Below the pieces are notes generated by a model that ran no database searches, was not told the origin of the DNA, and saw only the letters and a program-made list of their open reading frames with translations. This document shows, in pieces, positions 13,835 to 58,919 of a stretch of 64,000 nt of DNA. The stretch lies in IMG/VR virus record IMGVR_UViG_3300026097_001455, positions 16,862 to 80,861 of that record. One strand, 5' to 3'. The stretch is from a virus. A program made the position numbers and the translations under genes. Position 1 is the stretch's first letter. Each line of letters starts with the position of its first letter.

Positions 13835-14386
13835 ATGGCGAACAATAGAGGGCGAAATAGAGGTCGAAAAAGAGATAGAGGACCTAAGCATAAAATAAAC
13901 GATAAGATCAGATACCCAGAAGTAAGAGTTGTTGAAGGTATTGATACTGGAATTTACGATACCTCTGAGGCTCTAAGAGAAGCTGAAGACCTTGGCTTGG
14001 ACCTTGTTCTAATAACTGAGAATGCTAAACCACCAGTTTGCAAGGTGATTGATTACAAAAAATTCTTGTATGAAGAAAAGAAAAAGCAGAAAGAGCAAGA
14101 AAAAAATCAAATCAAAGTTGTTGTAAAAGAAGTTAGATTGTCTCCAAACATAGGAGATCATGATTTTGATGTGGTTAAGAAAAGGGCTCACGGCTTCCTA
14201 GAAGATGGGAATAAGGTAAAGGTGACTTTAAGATTTAAAGGCAGAAACATTGTTTTTAAAGAAAGAGGTGAAGAGGTAATGCTTAGATTTGCAGACGAGC
14301 TTAGCGAAGTAGGCGTTCCAGAGTCTATGCCTAAACTACAGAACAGGCAAATGATCTTTACAATAAAGCCAAAAAAGAAAAAATGA
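13835..14386 (+). CDS. infC: Translation initiation factor IF-3
   Basis: A 183-residue, full-length IF-3 (E. coli IF-3 has 180). The N-terminal domain starts INDKIRYPEVRVV (residues 21-33). The linker carries the hallmark PPVCKVIDYKKFLYEEKKKQK (residues 66-86). The C-terminal domain has KEVRLSPNIGDHD (98-110), FLEDGNKVKVTLRFKGR (121-137) and MPKLQNRQM (165-173). In bacteria IF-3 binds the 30S subunit, blocks premature 50S joining, checks the start codon and helps recycling. It uses ATG, not the AUU start used for autoregulation in E. coli. It overlaps the next gene by four bases. A phage copy could shift start-site choice or reinitiation toward phage messages, which lack Shine-Dalgarno sites. 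Confidence 0.95.
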   Translation: MANNRGRNRGRKRDRGPKHKINDKIRYPEVRVVEGIDTGIYDTSEALREAEDLGLDLVLITENAKPPVCKVIDYKKFLYEEKKKQKEQEKNQIKVVVKEVRLSPNIGDHDFDVVKKRAHGFLEDGNKVKVTLRFKGRNIVFKERGEEVMLRFADELSEVGVPESMPKLQNRQMIFTIKPKKKK

Positions 14387-33623: not shown

Positions 33624-35660
33624 TTAGAAATCTATTTCTAATTGGAAAGCTAAGTATCTTGATGAATTCTTTTTAATTGGAAATGTTGGCTTACCAACTG
33701 CAACCAATACGTTATTATTATTTAGAACCCCAACTTCTGTTATGTAAGTGTCTGTATCAAGCAATCCATCAAAGCTTGAGTTTTGCGAATTATTGTATTG
33801 AGGGTCTGGAAGCTGTACTGTCATTATAGACTTAAACACAGTCGCTCTTATAGATGCTTTTATGTTACCGAAGAAAAATGATTCATTCCCAAAGGTAAGT
33901 CCATAACTATCGTCATCGTTATTATCGTGAAATGTGTTGTCAAGAACATAAGTGCTTCCGCTTACATAGTCTTCTCTTGAGGTTATAAACTGAAAACCTG
34001 CTAAGTTATTAGGGTCAATCGTTAAACTTCCTGTAGAGCCTGTATATAAGCCGTTACCAGTTCCTCCCGAAGACATTAATCTCCATCCATCTGTTGGTAT
34101 TGTATCTAAATCGACAGAAGGGCTAGTTGTCAAATCAACTTCATTTACGAGTAGCTGTACTTTATTTGCATTCCAACCAGTTCCAGAAAGGGCGCTCATA
34201 TTACTAGAGTTTCTCATGTAAGGAAATGACGAAGAATTAAAGTATGCCCTAAGGTATTGAGGATTCCCAGAAGAGTCTTCAACTCCATCTATCCTCTGAA
34301 TATATTGACACGGCAAAGATTGAGGGTATCCATAAGAACTACCTGAGGCGTATTCTGAATCACTTTCTGTTATATAAGTCACAAAGTATGTGTACCCGCT
34401 TCTAAGCACTCCTGTTGAATTATTTGTATTAAGAGGTGTCTTAGGAACAGTTGTTGATTCCACGGTTAATGGGGGGAGGGTGTATGATCTGTTAGACTTA
34501 TATGTCAACGCTGTTAGTAATTCAGCATCTGTTATCACAATAAGTTTTAGTTTATGATAAACTCTACCTACAACAAAATTTTGAGCCGAATTTCCATCTC
34601 TAAGTTCTCTATATGTTGTCTGAGCTGCTGCATCAAATATTGTCGAGCCTGCAGAATCACTTAACTGTATTCCATAAGAAGTTTCTGTTCCTATATTTCC
34701 AGGGTATCTGTGCCACTTTACATTTGGAATATCTATTACAACACTTTTTTCAACAAGCTGTTCTGCATACGTATTTCCAGTGTACTCATTTGTGTAATGA
34801 ATAACTCCAAGCTGTCTAGTCTCATCTTCAAATCCAAGATATTGCTTAGTTCCGTTGTATTCTATAGAGCCATATGTGGTATAACCACTTATTGAGGCGT
34901 CCGTACCTTCAACAGAGCTTGTTCTTACTATGTTCATATTCCACACTCTAGTGTTAACTGTTGCAGCAGAACCGTAAAAATCTTCAACTCCATTAAATGG
35001 ATAGAAATAAGTATTTAAAACTTGAGATGATGTTGTGCCTGTTCCTCCAAAATTAGGAACCTCCCTATCAAGAGTTACTACTGAAGTTCCAGTGTCAGCC
35101 GTCATTACTCTGTACCAAAGGTCGTTAATTGACTTTCCTGAGTTAATTAGCTCAGATGAATCATACACAAACCCACTTGCCTGAACTGGCTCCCAAGGTA
35201 TGTAAATTAGATCACCAGCAACAGGAATATATCCAGTTCCCCCTCCAGCAAGAGTTATTTCATTTGTCCCATCTGGAGTATATGTGGAGTAGTCTATTGT
35301 GTTAGAACCAATATATTCATCTGAATCAATCGCCCAAGAATTTGTTGAGCCTGTGAAAAATCCAGTAGAATCAGTGCTTGCTGTTATTATCTGTGTTGCA
35401 GAACCAACTGTAATAGGAAATGCATTGGAGCCATCAAAACTCGTTGGCGTTGCAAATCCAGGAGCTGAGTCCTTAGGGCTTAGTACTCTGTTGCAGCAGT
35501 CAATATCATACGCCCCAGTTCTATCAATGCCATAATCTATCTCTCTATCAGATACAATTGCATTATTAAACGTAAGCTGTCCGAGGGACAGAAGTTGTCT
35601 CCCAGCATCGGTAAGTTTTATGTTGATGAACGTTGTCGGCTCTTTTGGTAAATAACTCAT
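33624..35660 (-). CDS. Large tail appendage or baseplate protein
   Basis: A 678-residue beta-rich protein. N-terminal module: F-I-N-I-K-L-T-D-A-G-R-Q-L-L near residue 12-25 and a D-x-x-I-D-Y element. C-terminal module: T-Y-I-T-E-V-G-V, V-L-V-A-V-G-K, F-Q-L-E-I-D-F. The middle is S/T/G/Y-rich, typical of fibre or wall proteins. It shares its N-terminus with the 33113 gene and its C-terminus with the 31442 gene, so the cluster probably arose by duplication and trimming. It is divergent from the gpI-like gene across a 133-base promoter region. Confidence 0.7.
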   Translation of the reverse strand: MSYLPKEPTTFINIKLTDAGRQLLSLGQLTFNNAIVSDREIDYGIDRTGAYDIDCCNRVLSPKDSAPGFATPTSFDGSNAFPITVGSATQIITASTDSTGFFTGSTNSWAIDSDEYIGSNTIDYSTYTPDGTNEITLAGGGTGYIPVAGDLIYIPWEPVQASGFVYDSSELINSGKSINDLWYRVMTADTGTSVVTLDREVPNFGGTGTTSSQVLNTYFYPFNGVEDFYGSAATVNTRVWNMNIVRTSSVEGTDASISGYTTYGSIEYNGTKQYLGFEDETRQLGVIHYTNEYTGNTYAEQLVEKSVVIDIPNVKWHRYPGNIGTETSYGIQLSDSAGSTIFDAAAQTTYRELRDGNSAQNFVVGRVYHKLKLIVITDAELLTALTYKSNRSYTLPPLTVESTTVPKTPLNTNNSTGVLRSGYTYFVTYITESDSEYASGSSYGYPQSLPCQYIQRIDGVEDSSGNPQYLRAYFNSSSFPYMRNSSNMSALSGTGWNANKVQLLVNEVDLTTSPSVDLDTIPTDGWRLMSSGGTGNGLYTGSTGSLTIDPNNLAGFQFITSREDYVSGSTYVLDNTFHDNNDDDSYGLTFGNESFFFGNIKASIRATVFKSIMTVQLPDPQYNNSQNSSFDGLLDTDTYITEVGVLNNNNVLVAVGKPTFPIKKNSSRYLAFQLEIDF

Positions 35661-35793: not shown

Positions 35794-38277
35794 ATGGCAA
35801 CACCAGCAGAAACAGCAACCACTATATCTTTAGCATTCAGTCCAGGGGAACAAATATTGTTTGCACCAACTGGGTCTGAGTCTATTTTTACATTTGGTGA
35901 TTATAGAGTAGAAAGAGATGGTGGGCCAGATATATTAACTGGCACTTCTCAGAATTTGCAGTTTACGCCATTCTCTACGCTTAACAACTTAGGTGCATCT
36001 GGATTCAGCCCAAATTTTTCAGTATCAGTTCAGAACAACGAGCTTAAACCAGTACATAAAGACCCATACAGCTACACCTATTTTGGCTCATTCTACACTG
36101 AAGTTGCAAACGCAATAAACAACGTAATTAATGATTTTCCTTATGCAGCTCTTGCATACGACAGTTTTGAGGGGGATACGATTATAGATTACAGCCAGAC
36201 ATTCAATAACATAACTGGACAGAAACTTTCTACTTTTAAAGTTCCGCTAGATGTAGTAACAAATCAAGGGTTTATACTATTCGGCTCTGGCTCTCCAATT
36301 AACAATGCAGTAAGCTTAATGACAAACACAAATATGTTTGAAATTCAACTTAGTGGAGCTACAACTGCAAAGACGGATTCTTATGAAATAAAGTCATATT
36401 CTTTTACAGCTGGTACTACAAATATATTAGAGTTTGAAATATACGGGCACTTGTTTGAGGATGCTACAGAAGCATATACTGGACAGACTAATAGCAAATT
36501 ACCTCTTTATATAAGACCCTCAAGAAAGAGGATGACAGAGTATAATAGAAGTATATCAAGAATAGAGAAGCAATTACTTGGCTCTGGTCTTCTTGATATT
36601 CCAGATGTAGATGACGAAAAAAGAGAATGGACATATAGGGTTCCGTGGCCTAGAACAATTGACGGATTTAACCCAGACACAAGAGGTGCAAACTTTGAGA
36701 CTTTTAAAGATAATGTATTACTTCTTGCTGGCAATGTAGATATGGATAAGACTGACATCATGTTAAAGACTATGTTGCCAGACAACTATCTTCAGTTTGA
36801 TTCAGATCAGCAGATATACAAAAAATTAACTTCATCATATGCTAAACAATTCGATGAGATCAAGAATTTCATTGATAACATGGCGTATGCTCACACTATC
36901 ACATATAATGAGGAAGAAAATATACCTGACAAATTCTTGGTTAAACTAAGTAATTTGTTAGGATGGAAGCTTTCTAGTACTTTTAACGAGATAGACTTGT
37001 TTGATTACTTAGCAAATGATCAAGACTTACAAGGAAATCAATATGCTTATTACAACATAGAGCTGTGGAAGAGAATTTTAATTAATATAAATTGGCTATA
37101 CAAGAGAAAAGGTACTAGAGATGCGCTTCAGTTTTTATTTAAACTAATGGGTGCTCCAGACTGTCTTATAGTATTTAATGAATTTATATATGAAATTGAT
37201 TCTACTTTATCATCTGGCACAACAGTTCCAATAGGAACTCCTCCAAGTAGTCTTAAGACAAATCCTAGAGGCTACCCAAACTATGAGTGGAGTAATTTAG
37301 AGTTTCAAGAAGGAGGTTTAGGAAGAGGTACTGGTCAGGCGTACATAAATCAGTGGGAACCAGAATTTAATCCATTAAAAAAGGTAGATAACATCAAAGT
37401 TCAGGTTGGAGATACTGGATTTACTGGGAGTGAAAACATAATGAACACCAAGGAGCTTTGTGCAACTTTGGACCCTGCTAACGCAATTGAGTGTGACGTT
37501 TTTGATTGGTATAAGCTAAGTGGTACTTGCTGGGTTTGGGGAAGTTCTGCCCCACCATTTAGTGCAAATACAGTTCCGTTCGAATATGCTATTGATGATT
37601 GTGAATTTGTTAATCCAGATAGAATTACTGGAATGACGTTCAATGATTACATGGAGTTTATTTACACATCAAACATTGACCCTACGAATAGAAAAACTAA
37701 TGACCAGGGACATACGATGTTTACATATCCTGAGCTGAAGAAGATTTATATGAACTATTATTTGTTAGCCGAACCTCAATCAAATAGGCTAACAATAAAG
37801 AAGCTTGAGGCATTTCTTGATCTTATGGAGGTTAATTTCCAGGATTATCTACTTCAACTTATACCTGCTACAACTATTCTTGAATGTCAAGGGACTACAT
37901 ACAGAAACACTGTATTTCATAGACAAAAATTTGTTTACAAGGACGGTATAAACAAAGGTTCAGAATTTCAAAATTCTTTACCTCCAGATATTAGGCCAGG
38001 TGTAACACCTATAAAGGTAACCTCTAAAGTTAATGATTTCCAAAAAGCAACTATTAATCCGATAGTCATAAATTCAGACGTTAGTCAAGGAATAAGATCA
38101 TCAGTTAACGCAATAGAGATAAAAGGTTATATTAACGTAAATAATATAGGTACAGGTATTGAAGGTTTCGATGTATCTGGAGATATTAATCTGCCGAGCG
38201 GAAGTTCTAGTCTATCTCTGTCAAACGCCCCAGTTAGAATATCTCAACCAGCAAATCTAGCAGGGCTAAGCTCATAA
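35794..38277 (+). CDS. Large baseplate/tail protein with P2 gpI-like domain
   Basis: An 827-residue protein. Residues about 300-480 carry the tail protein I pattern: a helix-rich segment, L-S-N-L-L-G-W (near 387-393) and W-L-Y-K-R-K-G-T-R-D-A-L-Q-F-L-F-K-L-M-G-A-P (near 433-454), where the K-G-T and final G are the family hallmarks. In P2 and similar phages gpI links baseplate wedge to fibres. The N-terminal 270 residues and C-terminal part are beta-rich and less clear. It leads a plus-strand island of three structural genes. Confidence 0.75.
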   Translation: MATPAETATTISLAFSPGEQILFAPTGSESIFTFGDYRVERDGGPDILTGTSQNLQFTPFSTLNNLGASGFSPNFSVSVQNNELKPVHKDPYSYTYFGSFYTEVANAINNVINDFPYAALAYDSFEGDTIIDYSQTFNNITGQKLSTFKVPLDVVTNQGFILFGSGSPINNAVSLMTNTNMFEIQLSGATTAKTDSYEIKSYSFTAGTTNILEFEIYGHLFEDATEAYTGQTNSKLPLYIRPSRKRMTEYNRSISRIEKQLLGSGLLDIPDVDDEKREWTYRVPWPRTIDGFNPDTRGANFETFKDNVLLLAGNVDMDKTDIMLKTMLPDNYLQFDSDQQIYKKLTSSYAKQFDEIKNFIDNMAYAHTITYNEEENIPDKFLVKLSNLLGWKLSSTFNEIDLFDYLANDQDLQGNQYAYYNIELWKRILININWLYKRKGTRDALQFLFKLMGAPDCLIVFNEFIYEIDSTLSSGTTVPIGTPPSSLKTNPRGYPNYEWSNLEFQEGGLGRGTGQAYINQWEPEFNPLKKVDNIKVQVGDTGFTGSENIMNTKELCATLDPANAIECDVFDWYKLSGTCWVWGSSAPPFSANTVPFEYAIDDCEFVNPDRITGMTFNDYMEFIYTSNIDPTNRKTNDQGHTMFTYPELKKIYMNYYLLAEPQSNRLTIKKLEAFLDLMEVNFQDYLLQLIPATTILECQGTTYRNTVFHRQKFVYKDGINKGSEFQNSLPPDIRPGVTPIKVTSKVNDFQKATINPIVINSDVSQGIRSSVNAIEIKGYINVNNIGTGIEGFDVSGDINLPSGSSSLSLSNAPVRISQPANLAGLSS

Positions 38278-51681: not shown

Positions 51682-53439
51682 ATGGGAGTTTTTAGAGTAT
51701 ATCCAAGGAAGAGCAATACAATAGCAAGCGGAGTTTATCAAATATACAACTCTGGACAAAATGCTGTTACCGATCTTTGGTACGGTGGTGGCGGAACTGA
51801 TACTGCACTTGCAAGGAGAAATTCTGTCAGTAGATTTATTGTTGACTTTGATCTTACAGAACTTATTCAAAAACTTTCTGAGAAAGAAATAAATGGTGAT
51901 CTTGTAAGCTCATACAGACTTAAGATGACAAATGCAATACCAGGAGATAAAATATTAGAACCTGAATACGAATTTGATAAACTTGACAAAAGAGTTGCTG
52001 CATCATTTGATCTCATAACATTCCCTGTAAACAAGGAATGGGACGAAGGTAGAGGGTACGACATGTTCCAAGAAAATTACCTTGTAAAACAGAGAGGCAA
52101 TCCAATAATCACTGGATATTCTAATTGGAACTTTGCAAAGCAAACAGTAGCTTGGGATGTTCCAGGTGTCTATTTCGACCCAACTGGCTCAACGTTTTCT
52201 GGCTCTGTAGTGCAAAGTGGAATTACTTTTGAGACTGCATCTATAAATACTGGACTTAACTCTGCTACTAATTTTGGATTTATAACTTCAGCAGCCACAA
52301 CAGCAGCTACAACAGCTATTTCCGCAACTACAATAGGAAATGATGTATTTGTTTCATACAACCCTCTAAGCGGTGTTGTATCTACAGAAGACTGGTATAA
52401 TTCAATAATAGCAACTTCTTTCAGCGGATTTGGTATTACTGCTTCTGGTTTTAGTGCAACAACATTTATAGGTACAGGTACTGATGCATTCTATTTATCT
52501 GCAAACACAGCTGTAGATAATATAAACTTCTATTCAACACAGCATTTTGATATTGGTAATGAAAATATAGATATGGATATTACTGATATTGTAAATGACT
52601 GGCTAAGTGGTGGTAGTGAAAATTATGGATTAGGAGTTGCCTATAGAAGGGATTATGAGCTTATGAGTACTGATACAAGGTATGTAGCTTCGTTCTATAC
52701 AGAAAAGACAAACTCTTCATTCAAACCTTATATTGAAGTTGTTTACGATCAATCTTTTCAAGATGATAGGCTTCAGGTTTCAAACAATAGGGTGTCTAGA
52801 TTATTTCTATACACATTTAGCGGAAACGATGCTGTTAATTACTCCTCAGCAAGTACGGTTGATATTAGAACAATGAATGGAGTAAATGTTTACACTGGGC
52901 TTACTCCTACTCAACTTGAGAAAGGAGTTTACTACGTGGATGTTAATATGAGTGGCGCAACTCGTGGAGAGCAATATAAAGATGTATGGAAGGGTGTTAC
53001 GTTTGTACCTGGAGTAGATCAACAAGACATAGAGCAGGTGTTTACAATAAGAGATAATTACTACACAAGTAACGTCCCTGAAGTAAATGATTATTCAATT
53101 ACTACATACGGAATTGGTAATAACTCTATACTTTCTCTTAACGAGACTCATAAAGTGTTTGTGGACCTCAGGGTTAACTATAGCAGTAGAAATCAACCTA
53201 AGACGGCTTACGATCTAAAATACAGGATAGTAATGAACTCTCAAGAAGAAGTGGTTCCATGGACATCGGTAAACCAAGCTGTGATCAATAGGTGTAAAAC
53301 AAATTACATGACACTTGAGACTGGGTGGTTATTACACAACCAAAGTTATCAAATACAGTTTAGGGTAGATGAGTTCGGAACCAAGAGAGTGCTTCCAGAA
53401 ACAGTTAACTTTAAAGTGCTAAGGTCTAATGACTTTTAA
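51682..53439 (+). CDS. Tail-associated protein with DNRLRE/carbohydrate-binding-like domain
   Basis: A 585-residue protein. Early residues (TIASGVYQIYNSGQNAVTDLWYGGG, RFIVDFDLTELI) and a later segment (MDITDIVNDWLSG, YGLGVAYRR, SSFKPYIEVVYD, about 298-355) follow the pattern of DNRLRE-type beta domains, in which D-I-T-x-x-V-x-x-W precedes a F-x-P-x-I-x-V-x-Y strand. Such domains bind surfaces or sugars. A single plus gene between baseplate operons, with its end overlapping the PncC gene by 14 bases. Likely a decoration, spike-associated or fibre protein. Confidence 0.65.
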   Translation: MGVFRVYPRKSNTIASGVYQIYNSGQNAVTDLWYGGGGTDTALARRNSVSRFIVDFDLTELIQKLSEKEINGDLVSSYRLKMTNAIPGDKILEPEYEFDKLDKRVAASFDLITFPVNKEWDEGRGYDMFQENYLVKQRGNPIITGYSNWNFAKQTVAWDVPGVYFDPTGSTFSGSVVQSGITFETASINTGLNSATNFGFITSAATTAATTAISATTIGNDVFVSYNPLSGVVSTEDWYNSIIATSFSGFGITASGFSATTFIGTGTDAFYLSANTAVDNINFYSTQHFDIGNENIDMDITDIVNDWLSGGSENYGLGVAYRRDYELMSTDTRYVASFYTEKTNSSFKPYIEVVYDQSFQDDRLQVSNNRVSRLFLYTFSGNDAVNYSSASTVDIRTMNGVNVYTGLTPTQLEKGVYYVDVNMSGATRGEQYKDVWKGVTFVPGVDQQDIEQVFTIRDNYYTSNVPEVNDYSITTYGIGNNSILSLNETHKVFVDLRVNYSSRNQPKTAYDLKYRIVMNSQEEVVPWTSVNQAVINRCKTNYMTLETGWLLHNQSYQIQFRVDEFGTKRVLPETVNFKVLRSNDF

Positions 53440-55873: not shown

Positions 55874-57151
55874 TTATTCTGGTATTTGACCAAGTATACT
55901 AGCGAGAGCTGCAGCAGCTGCAGCATACTTAACAGCCTTTTGAGCTGTATCGCTAACTCCTTGGAATAATTGAAACTTCTGTCTTAATTTTTCAACCCTT
56001 CTCTTTTGTTTTTCAATTGCTGTCCTAGCAAAATAGTTAGCAACAAGTCTTTTAAATTCCTTAATTGCCAACACAAGCAACAACCTAAGGAGCTCTTTAA
56101 GAAGGGCGTTTGCTAGACTCTTAAAAAAAGCCTGCTTCTGCTCTGGGTCTTGACTTGGGTTGTCAGCGCTATTCATAATAGCACAAGTTCCATAAGCAAT
56201 GCTAGACGCATCAATTCCAGCACCTGCAGTGGTTCCTTGAGTTAAATTGAATATCGGTCCTAGAAAGGGAAATATTAAAGAAGAGATGTAATTTAATAAT
56301 TTAACCAACATTATTTCATAAAAACTCTTTCCAACTGAATTTGCATTCTCTTCATTGTTTATGTTCTGAGTTTGATTCCTTACATATTGCACAGCAATCT
56401 GAAGACTTTGAGAAGGTGTTGGAACCTGTGTTGATTGAGTAAATTGACCGCCTCCATCAAAGAAATATCCAGGCTCTTCTGGAAGGGTTATTTTAACATC
56501 CTGACAACTGATTTCGAAAACTACCTCACCCGCCTCTAATTGTTGTCTAAGAGCAATTCTATTGTACTCGACATTCTCTTCCTTAACAATAGGGTCGCTT
56601 GATATGCTGAATATATTCTCTCCACAAATAGCTTCTTCAATAAGCCTATCTCTTTCTGATGGGTCTGGATTAAGAGACTCAGCAGCTGGGCCCTCCTTAG
56701 GGCCGAATATCATTAAGACTAAATTTTTAGCTAATTGCTGCTTTACTGTCTGTAAGAAAGTTGCAGGCACAAGACCTCTTAGATAAAGTCTGTTTGATTC
56801 TTTGTAATCTTCTATTTGTTGAGGTGTTGGGTTTGGTGTTACCGTGCTAGGAAGTTGCCTGCCTTGTTCTGCAAAAGAGTCTGCAACAGCGTCTAACACT
56901 TTTTCCTCTAAGAATGTTCCAGTTTCATCAAAAATCTTATCCAAAAAAAGATTGAATACAATCTCTGGGTCAACTCCTATTGCCTTAAGCACTTTGATCA
57001 AATAATCATAAGTTGATATTTGATCACCCTTAGGTATGTTAAGGTTTGTGTCAATAGGTATTGACAACAAGCTCTTCATTGACCCTATTTTAGAGGTCAA
57101 CTCTGCTTGTGCCTCAGTTAAAGGCGATGTTACTGGAATCTGTAATGCCAT
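55874..57151 (-). CDS. Tail/baseplate protein with hydrophobic helices
   Basis: A 425-residue protein. Residues 1-130 are mixed; about 275-305 (LLNYISSLIFPFLGPIFNLT) and 345-375 (LANALLKELLRLLLVLAIKEF) are strongly hydrophobic helices. The C-terminus is Ala-rich (AAAAAALASILGQIPE). Membrane-seeking helices in a virion protein could take part in DNA ejection or line the tail. It is coupled by TAATG to the upstream gene. No family is named with confidence. Confidence 0.6.
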   Translation of the reverse strand: MALQIPVTSPLTEAQAELTSKIGSMKSLLSIPIDTNLNIPKGDQISTYDYLIKVLKAIGVDPEIVFNLFLDKIFDETGTFLEEKVLDAVADSFAEQGRQLPSTVTPNPTPQQIEDYKESNRLYLRGLVPATFLQTVKQQLAKNLVLMIFGPKEGPAAESLNPDPSERDRLIEEAICGENIFSISSDPIVKEENVEYNRIALRQQLEAGEVVFEISCQDVKITLPEEPGYFFDGGGQFTQSTQVPTPSQSLQIAVQYVRNQTQNINNEENANSVGKSFYEIMLVKLLNYISSLIFPFLGPIFNLTQGTTAGAGIDASSIAYGTCAIMNSADNPSQDPEQKQAFFKSLANALLKELLRLLLVLAIKEFKRLVANYFARTAIEKQKRRVEKLRQKFQLFQGVSDTAQKAVKYAAAAAALASILGQIPE

Positions 57152-57579
57152 TATTCTTCGTAGTTATCTTTTTCGTCTGTTACGTCTAAGTCTACATCGT
57201 CAATGTTGTCATCCTCATTCTCTCCAGTTTCATCCTTGATGGCGTCAATTATAGCTCTCTTATCGAGGTCATTAAAGTTTACATCAATAGATGAGTCTGC
57301 CCCATCCTTGTAGACAATAGTTTTGATTTCTTTAGCAAGAGCTGCAATAGAATCAGATGAATCTGATGCTTGCTTTAGAAAGGAAATAGCATTCTTACCC
57401 ATAAGTATAAAACTCTCGGATGTATCCATTTGCTCATCAGCCCTTCTATATCTATCGAGAGCCATATCTCTTTCTTCAAGCTTATACTTATAAACCTGCT
57501 TGATCAACTCTTGATAAAGGTCTTGAGTTGGGTCCATTCTTTCGTCCCCGCTATTATTTTGATTTTGATTATCGTCCAT
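57151..57579 (-). CDS. Hypothetical acidic helical protein
   Basis: A 142-residue protein (MDDNQNQNNSGDERMD). Residues 15-85 are helical, the last 45 are very acidic (DETGENEDDNIDDVDLDVTDEKDNYEE). It leads the 54234-57579 minus operon with a late-type motif. Function unknown; the operon context suggests tail assembly. Confidence 0.6.
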   Translation of the reverse strand: MDDNQNQNNSGDERMDPTQDLYQELIKQVYKYKLEERDMALDRYRRADEQMDTSESFILMGKNAISFLKQASDSSDSIAALAKEIKTIVYKDGADSSIDVNFNDLDKRAIIDAIKDETGENEDDNIDDVDLDVTDEKDNYEE

Positions 57580-57601: not shown

Positions 57602-57609
57602 TATAAATA
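57602..57609 (-). promoter_or_regulatory. Late-type promoter motif TATTTATA
   Basis: Minus-strand CTATTTATAG, 22 bases before the ATG at 57579. Confidence 0.55.
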
Positions 57610-57624
57610 GAAATTAGAAAAAAA

Positions 57625-57993
57625 CTATGGCAAACCGAGGATAAAGTCGTTTTTTATGAAAGAGTATATTTTTCTAAATTTGTAAAGTGAAAATTGAAAG
57701 TCCTCCTCTTCAAGGCCAGAGTAATCTAATAAATATTCTTTTATTTGCTTTGAGTTCCAAAAAGAAATATCGACATTAAGGGTGTCTAGATTTGATACTA
57801 ATTCTAAAATTGACTCCAAAACAACCCTATCAGCTTCCTCTTCTTCTGGTATTGCCTCTAATTCAAGGTCAAGTGTATCAATAAGAAAATTACAAAAGGA
57901 GACACAATTACCTTTATCTATCTCCTTTGTATCATCTGCAAATAATTCTTCAATTATACGCAAAAATATTTCTTTCTTAACTTTAAGTTCCAT
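57625..57993 (-). CDS. Small companion of the late sigma factor (possible gp33-like coactivator)
   Basis: A 122-residue acidic protein encoded five bases after the gp55-like gene. Its C-terminal 37 residues (about 80-116: L-E-E-E-D-F-Q-F-S-L-Y-K-F-R-K-I-Y) align with the C-terminal region of the sigma protein (L-E-T-K-D-I-T-Y-S-L-H-R-F-K-I-L-Y): about 9 identities in 26 positions and many conservative changes. T4 gp33, a late-transcription coactivator of 112 residues, works with gp55; size and position fit, but homology to gp33 itself cannot be shown here. Confidence 0.6.
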   Translation of the reverse strand: MELKVKKEIFLRIIEELFADDTKEIDKGNCVSFCNFLIDTLDLELEAIPEEEEADRVVLESILELVSNLDTLNVDISFWNSKQIKEYLLDYSGLEEEDFQFSLYKFRKIYSFIKNDFILGLP

Positions 57994-57998
57994 GTCAT

Positions 57999-58919
57999 CT
58001 AGTATGTAAACATATCATCGTCATGACCGTAGTATTTATCCTGGTGCCTTTCAACAAACTCCTTCTTCTTGATCTTATATAATATCTTGAATCTGTGAAG
58101 GGAGTAAGTAATGTCTTTAGTCTCAAGGTTTGTATGCTCCTTAATTAACTTATATACAGTACTCTTAGTATATGCACCAATGATCTCATGATTTCGAAAA
58201 ATCTCTACTATCGCATCAGCAACCTTAGCATCATTCTTAGAAATATCTGGTCTATCTATTTCGTCTTCGAATATATCTGTAATGTATTCGAATAATGCGT
58301 AAGAGCTATCAAGGTCGGACTCTTCATCAATTTCGTATTGAGTCATTTCCTCAGCCTCGGAGCTATGATCTTCGTAGTTAAGAGAAGACTTGGTTTTTTT
58401 ATCCACAGCCTTCTTCTCATTTTGAAGATAATGCTTTGCTACAGTGCCATAAAAAGAAAAAGATTTTGTATTCTGATCTGGGTCAAAGTTACAGAATTTC
58501 TCTAAAACAAAAGACATGCAGTCGTTGTGGAGTGTCTTTACGTCAACTCCAGGTCTGAACAGTCTAAAGCTAAAGATAATATTCTCGACTAACCTAGTAA
58601 GTGGCTTGTAAATTTTGTTTCTGAATACCTCTTCTTTTTTAGCTATGATCTCTGGTCTCTTGGTGTGGTCCACCATGGACTGATTGATCGCTACAAAATC
58701 CTCATCAACCTCAAGAAATTTTTTATATCTCTTGGGATTTTTCCTATTTCGTTCAACGCTTTTTTCTACTTCTTCAAGATGTTTATCAATCTTATACTGA
58801 TAAAAATTGAAGTCGTTTTTAAGATATTCTCTTACCGCCTCTTCTGTCTCTTCGGTCCAATATTCTCTCTTCTTTTTTGCTGGCTTTTCCTTATTATGCT
58901 TTTTGTGGCTCTTGCTCAT
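57999..58919 (-). CDS. Late-transcription sigma factor, T4 gp55-like
   Basis: A 306-residue protein started at the ATG at 58919 (MSKSHKKHNKEK); an alternative ATG exists at 58991, deeper inside the upstream gene. A Lys-rich N-terminus is followed by a sigma region 2-type helix set near residues 130-180: L-V-E-N-I-I-F, then D-C-M-S-F-V-L-E-K-F, F-D-P-D-Q-N-T-K-S-F-S-F-Y-G-T-V-A-K-H-Y. This is the pattern of gp55-family phage sigma factors that direct host RNA polymerase to late promoters. The end D-D-D-M-F-T-Y may be a clamp- or polymerase-binding tail. It overlaps the upstream gene by 26 bases. Confidence 0.75.
   Translation of the reverse strand: MSKSHKKHNKEKPAKKKREYWTEETEEAVREYLKNDFNFYQYKIDKHLEEVEKSVERNRKNPKRYKKFLEVDEDFVAINQSMVDHTKRPEIIAKKEEVFRNKIYKPLTRLVENIIFSFRLFRPGVDVKTLHNDCMSFVLEKFCNFDPDQNTKSFSFYGTVAKHYLQNEKKAVDKKTKSSLNYEDHSSEAEEMTQYEIDEESDLDSSYALFEYITDIFEDEIDRPDISKNDAKVADAIVEIFRNHEIIGAYTKSTVYKLIKEHTNLETKDITYSLHRFKILYKIKKKEFVERHQDKYYGHDDDMFTY

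Follow-up and report, generated by a model that had tools for sequence, protein, structure and literature searches.

The genes described here lie on the minus strand of a marine T4-like phage, in a window of 64,000 nucleotides (bases 16,862-80,861 of IMG/VR virus record IMGVR_UViG_3300026097_001455; "the window" means this whole stretch). As the record comprises 80,861 bases, it is possibly a fragment. The initial annotation reported a gene for a gp55-like late sigma factor followed by a gene for a 122-residue protein, and both open reading frames were found where it had placed them. The features of the locus are as follows.

57999-58919, minus strand: late sigma-like transcription factor, 306 amino acids (open reading frame with its ATG at 58919)
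58398-58634, minus strand: sigma region 2-like core, residues 96-174 (VIA-align structural matches)
58047-58313, minus strand: C-terminal four-helix domain of the sigma protein, residues ~203-291, the putative donor of the duplication (AlphaFold helices)
58002-58025, minus strand: acidic-aromatic C-terminal tail of the sigma protein, ...GHDDDMFTY (clade alignment)
57994-57998, minus strand: 5-nt gap between the sigma stop codon and the start of the small gene (sequence)
57625-57993, minus strand: small acidic protein of 122 amino acids, a paralogue of the C-terminal sigma domain (open reading frame; profile and BLAST evidence)
57637-57924, minus strand: duplicated domain inside the small protein, residues ~24-119 (hhalign register and helix pattern)
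57628-57651, minus strand: C-terminal tail of the small protein, ...KNDFILGLP (alignment and DNA)
57602-57609, minus strand: candidate late promoter box TATTTATA of the gene after the small gene (motif analysis)
57151-57579, minus strand: helical, acidic protein of 142 amino acids (conserved gene order)

The sigma gene, the small gene and the gene for the 142-residue protein occur in the same order in contigs L001-L007 and L194, which we refer to as the clade. The L007 copy and the window's copy are identical. The pair is syntenic in seven further contigs. The gap between the sigma gene and the small gene is 3-7 nt in the relatives, and a gap this short suggests that the two genes share one transcript and that their translation is coupled. 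Downstream of the pair are tail/baseplate-like genes. Elsewhere in the window, an open reading frame of 183 amino acids (13835-14386, plus strand) is one that we take, by eye, to resemble translation initiation factor IF3; such a gene is unusual in a phage.

The larger protein was assigned through its family. Searched singly against Pfam and PHROGs, the window proteins gave nothing significant, and the window's sigma protein alone had no Pfam sigma match. Among 30 members of its family, 15 matched Pfam Sigma70_r2 (best E 0.0015), 10 matched PHROG_234, 'late sigma transcription factor' (best 0.012), and 5 matched PHROG_1740, 'RNA polymerase sigma factor'. The PDB matches of the sigma model were mostly sigma factors, with Foldseek E-values that were not significant by themselves. 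VIA-align superimposed region 2 on the N-terminal domain of SigE (8b3z) with Z 8.2 and an rmsd of 2.3 Å over 76 residues, and the sigma model on SigB (7pp4) with Z 8.5 and an rmsd of 2.8 Å over 106 residues, values of Z that helical bundles can also attain. In several of the model matches, residues ~20-95 aligned with region 1.2 of cellular sigmas. The clade sigmas have an N-terminal insertion of ~70 amino acids (residues ~34-95; 58634-58820, minus strand) that is absent in the broad family of sigma relatives. The matches are weak but convergent, and the protein is probably a sigma70-family, gp55-like late factor with an extra C-terminal domain. The description of this protein as a gp55-like late sigma is supported to that extent, but T4 gp55 has no counterpart of the domain that was duplicated.

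That C-terminal domain is conserved across the broad sigma family as KVADAI...KKALYIYIREMTDCET..LT..I..LK. Alignments of the whole sigma protein put it at region 4 of SigH and sigma70, with a large rmsd over the flexible domains, and a search with the Sigma70_r4 profile found no match in the sigma family members or in the window proteins. As a Foldseek comparison of the small-protein model with the PDB and a viral library gave no confident match, the equivalence with region 4 rests on position and on the helix-turn-helix-like pattern. On the models, the four-helix domain appears helix-turn-helix-like and is positioned like region 4 of ordinary sigma factors. It is followed by the tail GHDDDMFTY, which is kept in all clade sigmas and absent in the broad relatives; the sigma protein is the only protein of its own genome that was flagged with an acidic-aromatic tail.

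By sequence comparison, the 122-residue protein is paralogous to the last ~90 residues of the 306-residue sigma protein, from which it has diverged. This relation had been proposed from a shared pattern, and the pattern does stand literally in both proteins, as NLETKDITYSLHRFKILY and GLEEEDFQFSLYKFRKIY. The letters 'LE..D...SL', however, are peculiar to this genome's copy; as the relatives do not keep them, we rejected them as an ancestral signature. Common to the relatives are only [KR]-F-[KR]-x-x-Y-x-x-x-K and a few core positions, and these are the main features shared by all small copies. The similarity exceeds the motif: it covers ~90 residues (sigma ~203-291 against small protein ~29-119), with predicted helices that match.

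Several searches support the relation. BLASTP aligned the sigma protein and the small protein over 64 amino acids at 23% identity (E 4e-5), and when the small protein was searched against its own genome with tblastn, the second match, which spanned residues 23-118 of the small protein, lay in the sigma C-terminus (E 6e-5). A profile was built from six orthologous small proteins and run against 2033 ORFs, the distinct ORFs of the collected loci. Directly below the six small proteins ranked exactly the six clade sigmas (23.0 to 17.8 bits, E 9e-6 to 3e-4); the significant stretch was always their C-terminus, and the next unrelated ORF followed at E 0.2. Column-shuffled profiles, 200 in number, scored at most 8.3 bits against these sigmas. 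In the reverse search, a profile of the sigma C-terminal domain recovered the small proteins, with a best E of 4.6e-5. The small-protein profile also matched the sigma protein on the 63-kb contig of a relative at E 6e-7, and an eighth pair, which had no part in profile building, behaved in the same way (16.0 and 12.5 bits).

The models agree with the searches. The helices predicted by AlphaFold lie at residues 30-47, 53-67, 81-92 and 96-119 in the small protein (pLDDT 88) and at residues 203-221, 228-243, 252-263 and 267-291 in the sigma C-terminus, and they correspond in number, order, approximate length and register; hhalign sets sigma 206-289 against small protein 31-119. At the level of the helix pattern in these models, the two C-terminal regions do not have the unrelated folds that would have spoken against paralogy. 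It is very improbable that the likeness is chance between two helical proteins: identity is low (17-23%, with a mean of 17% between the small proteins and the sigma domain) and heptad patterns are common among helical proteins, but the profile matches are specific and reciprocal, they stand out from the shuffled controls, the helices share one register and the trees described below run in parallel.

The small paralogue appears to be confined to the clade. Within it, identity is 75-88% for the sigma protein and 38-61% for the small protein, and the pair is also present in L004 and L006. A search that used a broader alignment of sigma proteins found 541 stretches encoding relatives, of which 80 were retrieved. 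The broad-family sigmas that were read in detail (those of immuto, Mel-JY01 and others) are 231-256 amino acids long and keep the C-terminal domain. The small paralogue was absent in the broad-family members that were read (L011, L012, L036-L115, immuto and Mel-JY01); the small-protein profile found nothing in the whole records of immuto, Mel-JY01 and LR756508, and no relatives of the small protein were found among 50,697 phage records.

In the broad family, wherever the contig reaches that far, the gene after sigma encodes a protein of 115-134 amino acids, which carries ...GELKPLIENIGDATLIVPMIKEYMEIGVKNDEHL... Judged by position and motif, the 142-residue protein, which has an acidic tail, is its probable counterpart; the small paralogue would thus sit between two genes that are normally adjacent. 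The adjacency of the sigma gene and this gene hints at a role with the sigma factor or with the tail genes. On the other side of the sigma gene, the broad family has a conserved protein of ~97-120 amino acids that overlaps or abuts the sigma start and has an N-terminal hydrophobic stretch (..G.F.SDDE.G..F..I..I..). It lies at 5634-5924 in L011, 5550-5912 in L012 and 4608-4931 in L013, and it is missing in the window's clade.

In a tree of the domain, the small proteins group together (0.996) beside the clade sigmas (joint group 0.997), and the small-protein and sigma subtrees show largely the same grouping of contigs. The simplest reading of tree and synteny is that one partial tandem duplication took place on the stem of the clade and that both genes were then inherited jointly. 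The proposal that the small protein arose by partial duplication of the sigma C-terminal region is supported by profiles, synteny and tree.

The copy has since changed in character. The small proteins have a net charge of -10 to -15 and a pI of 4.2-4.5 (-15 and 4.2 for the window's copy), and the net charge of the helix-turn-helix-like part is -7 to +1 in the copies compared with +3 to +6 in the clade sigmas. Among relatives for which dS is unsaturated, dN/dS of the small protein is 0.09-0.34. For the closest pair it is 0.25 in the small protein versus 0.05 in the sigma protein, and for one pair dN is 0.22 versus 0.05. By these estimates the small protein is under purifying selection yet evolving faster than the sigma protein; dN/dS together with conservation led us to reject the idea that the small gene is a pseudogene or a decaying duplicate. 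The conserved [KR]F[KR]xxY residues could have a role in folding alone. Outside the shared domain the small protein has its own N-terminal helix.

Its C-terminus is also characteristic. Most small copies end in [DE]F[LIF][LF][GD][LF], as in KDDFLLGLS, KDDFLLDLM and KDEFLLDFP of the relatives, and in the AlphaFold model the tail continues the last helix (96-119) and is not on a flexible linker. The L004 and L006 copies have an altered tail that ends in FFIDFF. We rejected a frameshift as its source, as the ending looks more like an insertion.

Candidate late promoters place the small gene in its transcriptional context. Of 384 upstream regions examined in the clade, 63 have TATTTAT in the sense orientation 20-29 nt before the start codon; permuted 7-mers averaged 5.8 such genes, and the antisense strand gave 5. 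The promoter profile of the clade is (A/C)TATTTATA(A/T)nAAAA; a weak T tract directly precedes it, and it has no -35 block. Within the window, the TATTTAT box precedes tail and structural genes. Boxes stand, for example, at 57602-57609 (minus strand) and before 33624-35660, 35794-38277 and 51682-53439. The motif could be due in part to other constraints near start codons. We infer that the clade sigma reads (A/C)TATTTATA late promoters. As no box precedes the small gene itself and one precedes the next gene, the small gene is probably part of the sigma transcription unit. In immuto, the late region is enriched in TATTTA/TTTATA. The immuto genes (L118, 30000-79000) also have a common upstream element around TATATTTAGGTATCAATAATTAA, which probably represents promoters of another class than those with the late box.

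Based on these findings, we propose a model in which the small protein is a free-standing accessory subunit of the late holoenzyme that acts on RNA polymerase in late transcription. We give this reading a probability of about 0.45. The late sigma factor of the phage would consist of region 2 and the C-terminal four-helix domain, and the latter would have been duplicated in tandem in the ancestor of the clade. The free-standing copy is probably co-transcribed and co-translated with the sigma factor. It has retained the order of the helices and the [KR]F[KR]xxY helix, has turned strongly acidic and has lost the net positive charge of the helix-turn-helix part. Since the candidate late promoters show a -10-like box but nothing conserved at -35, we consider it most likely that the copy works through protein contacts and not by reading DNA. 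We propose RNA polymerase as its binding partner, the simplest site being the beta-flap position used by sigma region 4 domains; there it may stand in for or displace the C-terminal domains of the phage and host sigma factors. Either action would favour late promoters that lack a -35 element.

The same binding could also be inhibitory. The copy, on the flap or as a heterodimer with the sigma C-terminal domain, might act as a competitor or anti-sigma factor of the phage or host sigma and so time the switch instead of activating late genes. A copy of the domain that lacks region 2 would be expected to compete for that same site; the small protein is also strongly acidic, evolves faster than the sigma protein and is apparently made from the sigma transcript. 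Sequence, however, does not separate inhibition from cooperation, and such tight co-expression with the sigma factor would be unusual for a pure inhibitor that acts later. We consider an inhibitory role doubtful.

A fuller analogy with T4 would have the small protein on the flap and its tail, and that of the sigma protein, on the sliding clamp, which would couple late transcription to replication. The small-protein tails (DFILGL, DFLLGL, DFLLDL and EFLLDF) resemble the T4 tails, which read ...TNTLDFLL in gp33 (translated) and ...SLDFLYEAND in gp55, although this is resemblance only; the clade-specific sigma tail, with its DDDxF, is acidic and aromatic. The tails are the only positive pointer to a clamp. 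Against this, no T4-type clamp (PF02916, PF09116) was found in the clade contigs or in immuto and Mel-JY01, two relatives with complete genomes, and T4's own clamp, the control, was matched at E 3e-35. For the clade contigs this absence is not proof, as they are fragments in which no DNA polymerase of family A or B was recognised; the polymerase of immuto is of family A. The helical, linkerless course of the small-protein tail and its altered form in L004 and L006 also count against this reading. Such a bridge is unlikely.

Still less to be expected is a new role that has nothing to do with sigma, such as one in assembling the tail or baseplate, with the sigma gene serving only as the origin of the sequence. 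The downstream neighbours are indeed tail/baseplate-like, and the divergence from the sigma protein is large. Nevertheless, the small gene apparently belongs to the sigma transcript and the next gene has its own promoter box, and the helix motif shared with sigma is kept in every relative.

How far do the two proteins resemble the gp55/gp33 pair of T4? Both the clade sigma and gp55 are region 2 homologues in T4-like phages, the candidate late promoters of the clade share with those of T4 an AT-rich, -10-like box and the lack of a -35 box, and both proteins end in an acidic/hydrophobic tail. The promoter core is TATTTATA in the clade and TATAAATA in the gp55 system, the clade motif being the reverse complement of the T4 late box. 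The folded part of gp55 is region 2 and a helix-loop-helix (PMC7892883). T4 gp55 (185 amino acids) lacks the C-terminal four-helix domain, whereas the clade sigma tail, which cannot be aligned to the LDFLYE of gp55, comes after that domain. In profile comparisons with the gp55 and gp33 families, neither protein showed a significant sequence relation: the sigma protein against gp55 in hhalign gave P 0.27, which is at noise level although the register is that of region 2, and six small proteins against ten gp33 proteins gave P 0.37 and no meaningful alignment. No gp33 structure was among the Foldseek and VIA matches listed for the small-protein model, an absence from the list that excludes nothing. 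With no homology found in these comparisons, we do not consider the small protein a member of the gp33 family. The suggestion of a gp55/gp33-like pair is supported as to a late sigma with a duplicated small protein, but a gp33-like role or a bridge to the clamp would be hypothetical: neither homology with gp33 nor a clamp was found.

Apart from sequence, the small protein and gp33 have several features in common. The two proteins are similar in length (112 amino acids in gp33, 122 in the small protein), both are acidic (net charge -10 and -15), both have five helices (for gp33, PMC7892883) and both end in a DFLL-like tail, and by hypothesis the small protein, too, works alongside a late sigma, but gp33 is encoded far from gp55 whereas the small gene directly adjoins the sigma gene. 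T4 gp33 clamps the flap tip helix as sigma region 4 does and represses basal transcription (PMC7892883, PMC2988020). It is structurally unrelated to sigma region 4 (PMC7892883) and therefore did not visibly arise by duplication of a sigma domain. The copy in the clade would do the job that gp33 does in T4, having arrived at it by another route. In its most specific form, our proposal is a gp33-like co-activator of RNA polymerase built from the phage's own late sigma factor, an acidified copy of the domain that binds the flap, is possibly linked to a clamp, and is convergent with the T4 pair. This form is tentative and, taken as a whole, has the odds against it.

Other systems divide sigma functions differently. 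SigO-RsoA of Bacillus subtilis is listed as a two-subunit sigma factor (PMC10141391) and is similar in that sigma functions are split over two polypeptides, one of them small (9 kDa). There, however, the subunits supply different domains, whereas the clade sigma has retained a C-terminal domain of its own, which the small protein duplicates. The Flavobacterium phage immuto (immuto26A_153) and more than 500 IMG/VR relatives have sigmas with region 2 and the C-terminal domain at the same site upstream of tail genes. These sigmas lack the N-terminal insertion and the acidic tail and, in those that were read, the small paralogue.

Our search of the literature found no account of this sigma family or of the sigma/small-protein pair, and transcription in this group is, so far as we found, unstudied. 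The aquatic phages that carry the family are abundant, and a Flavobacterium phage is among their relatives. For T4, where gp55 and gp33 amount to sigma domains 2 and 4, a review of late transcription raises the question of why the two are invariably separate genes and why there is no fused late sigma (PMC2988020). The broad family described here is a candidate for such a late sigma, with the region 2 module fused to a C-terminal domain, and the clade is a case in which a copy of the second module was set free again as an adjacent gene. The fused form, the fused form with a copy and the fully separate form of T4 offer natural comparisons for the contribution that a separate partner on the flap makes to a late sigma factor.
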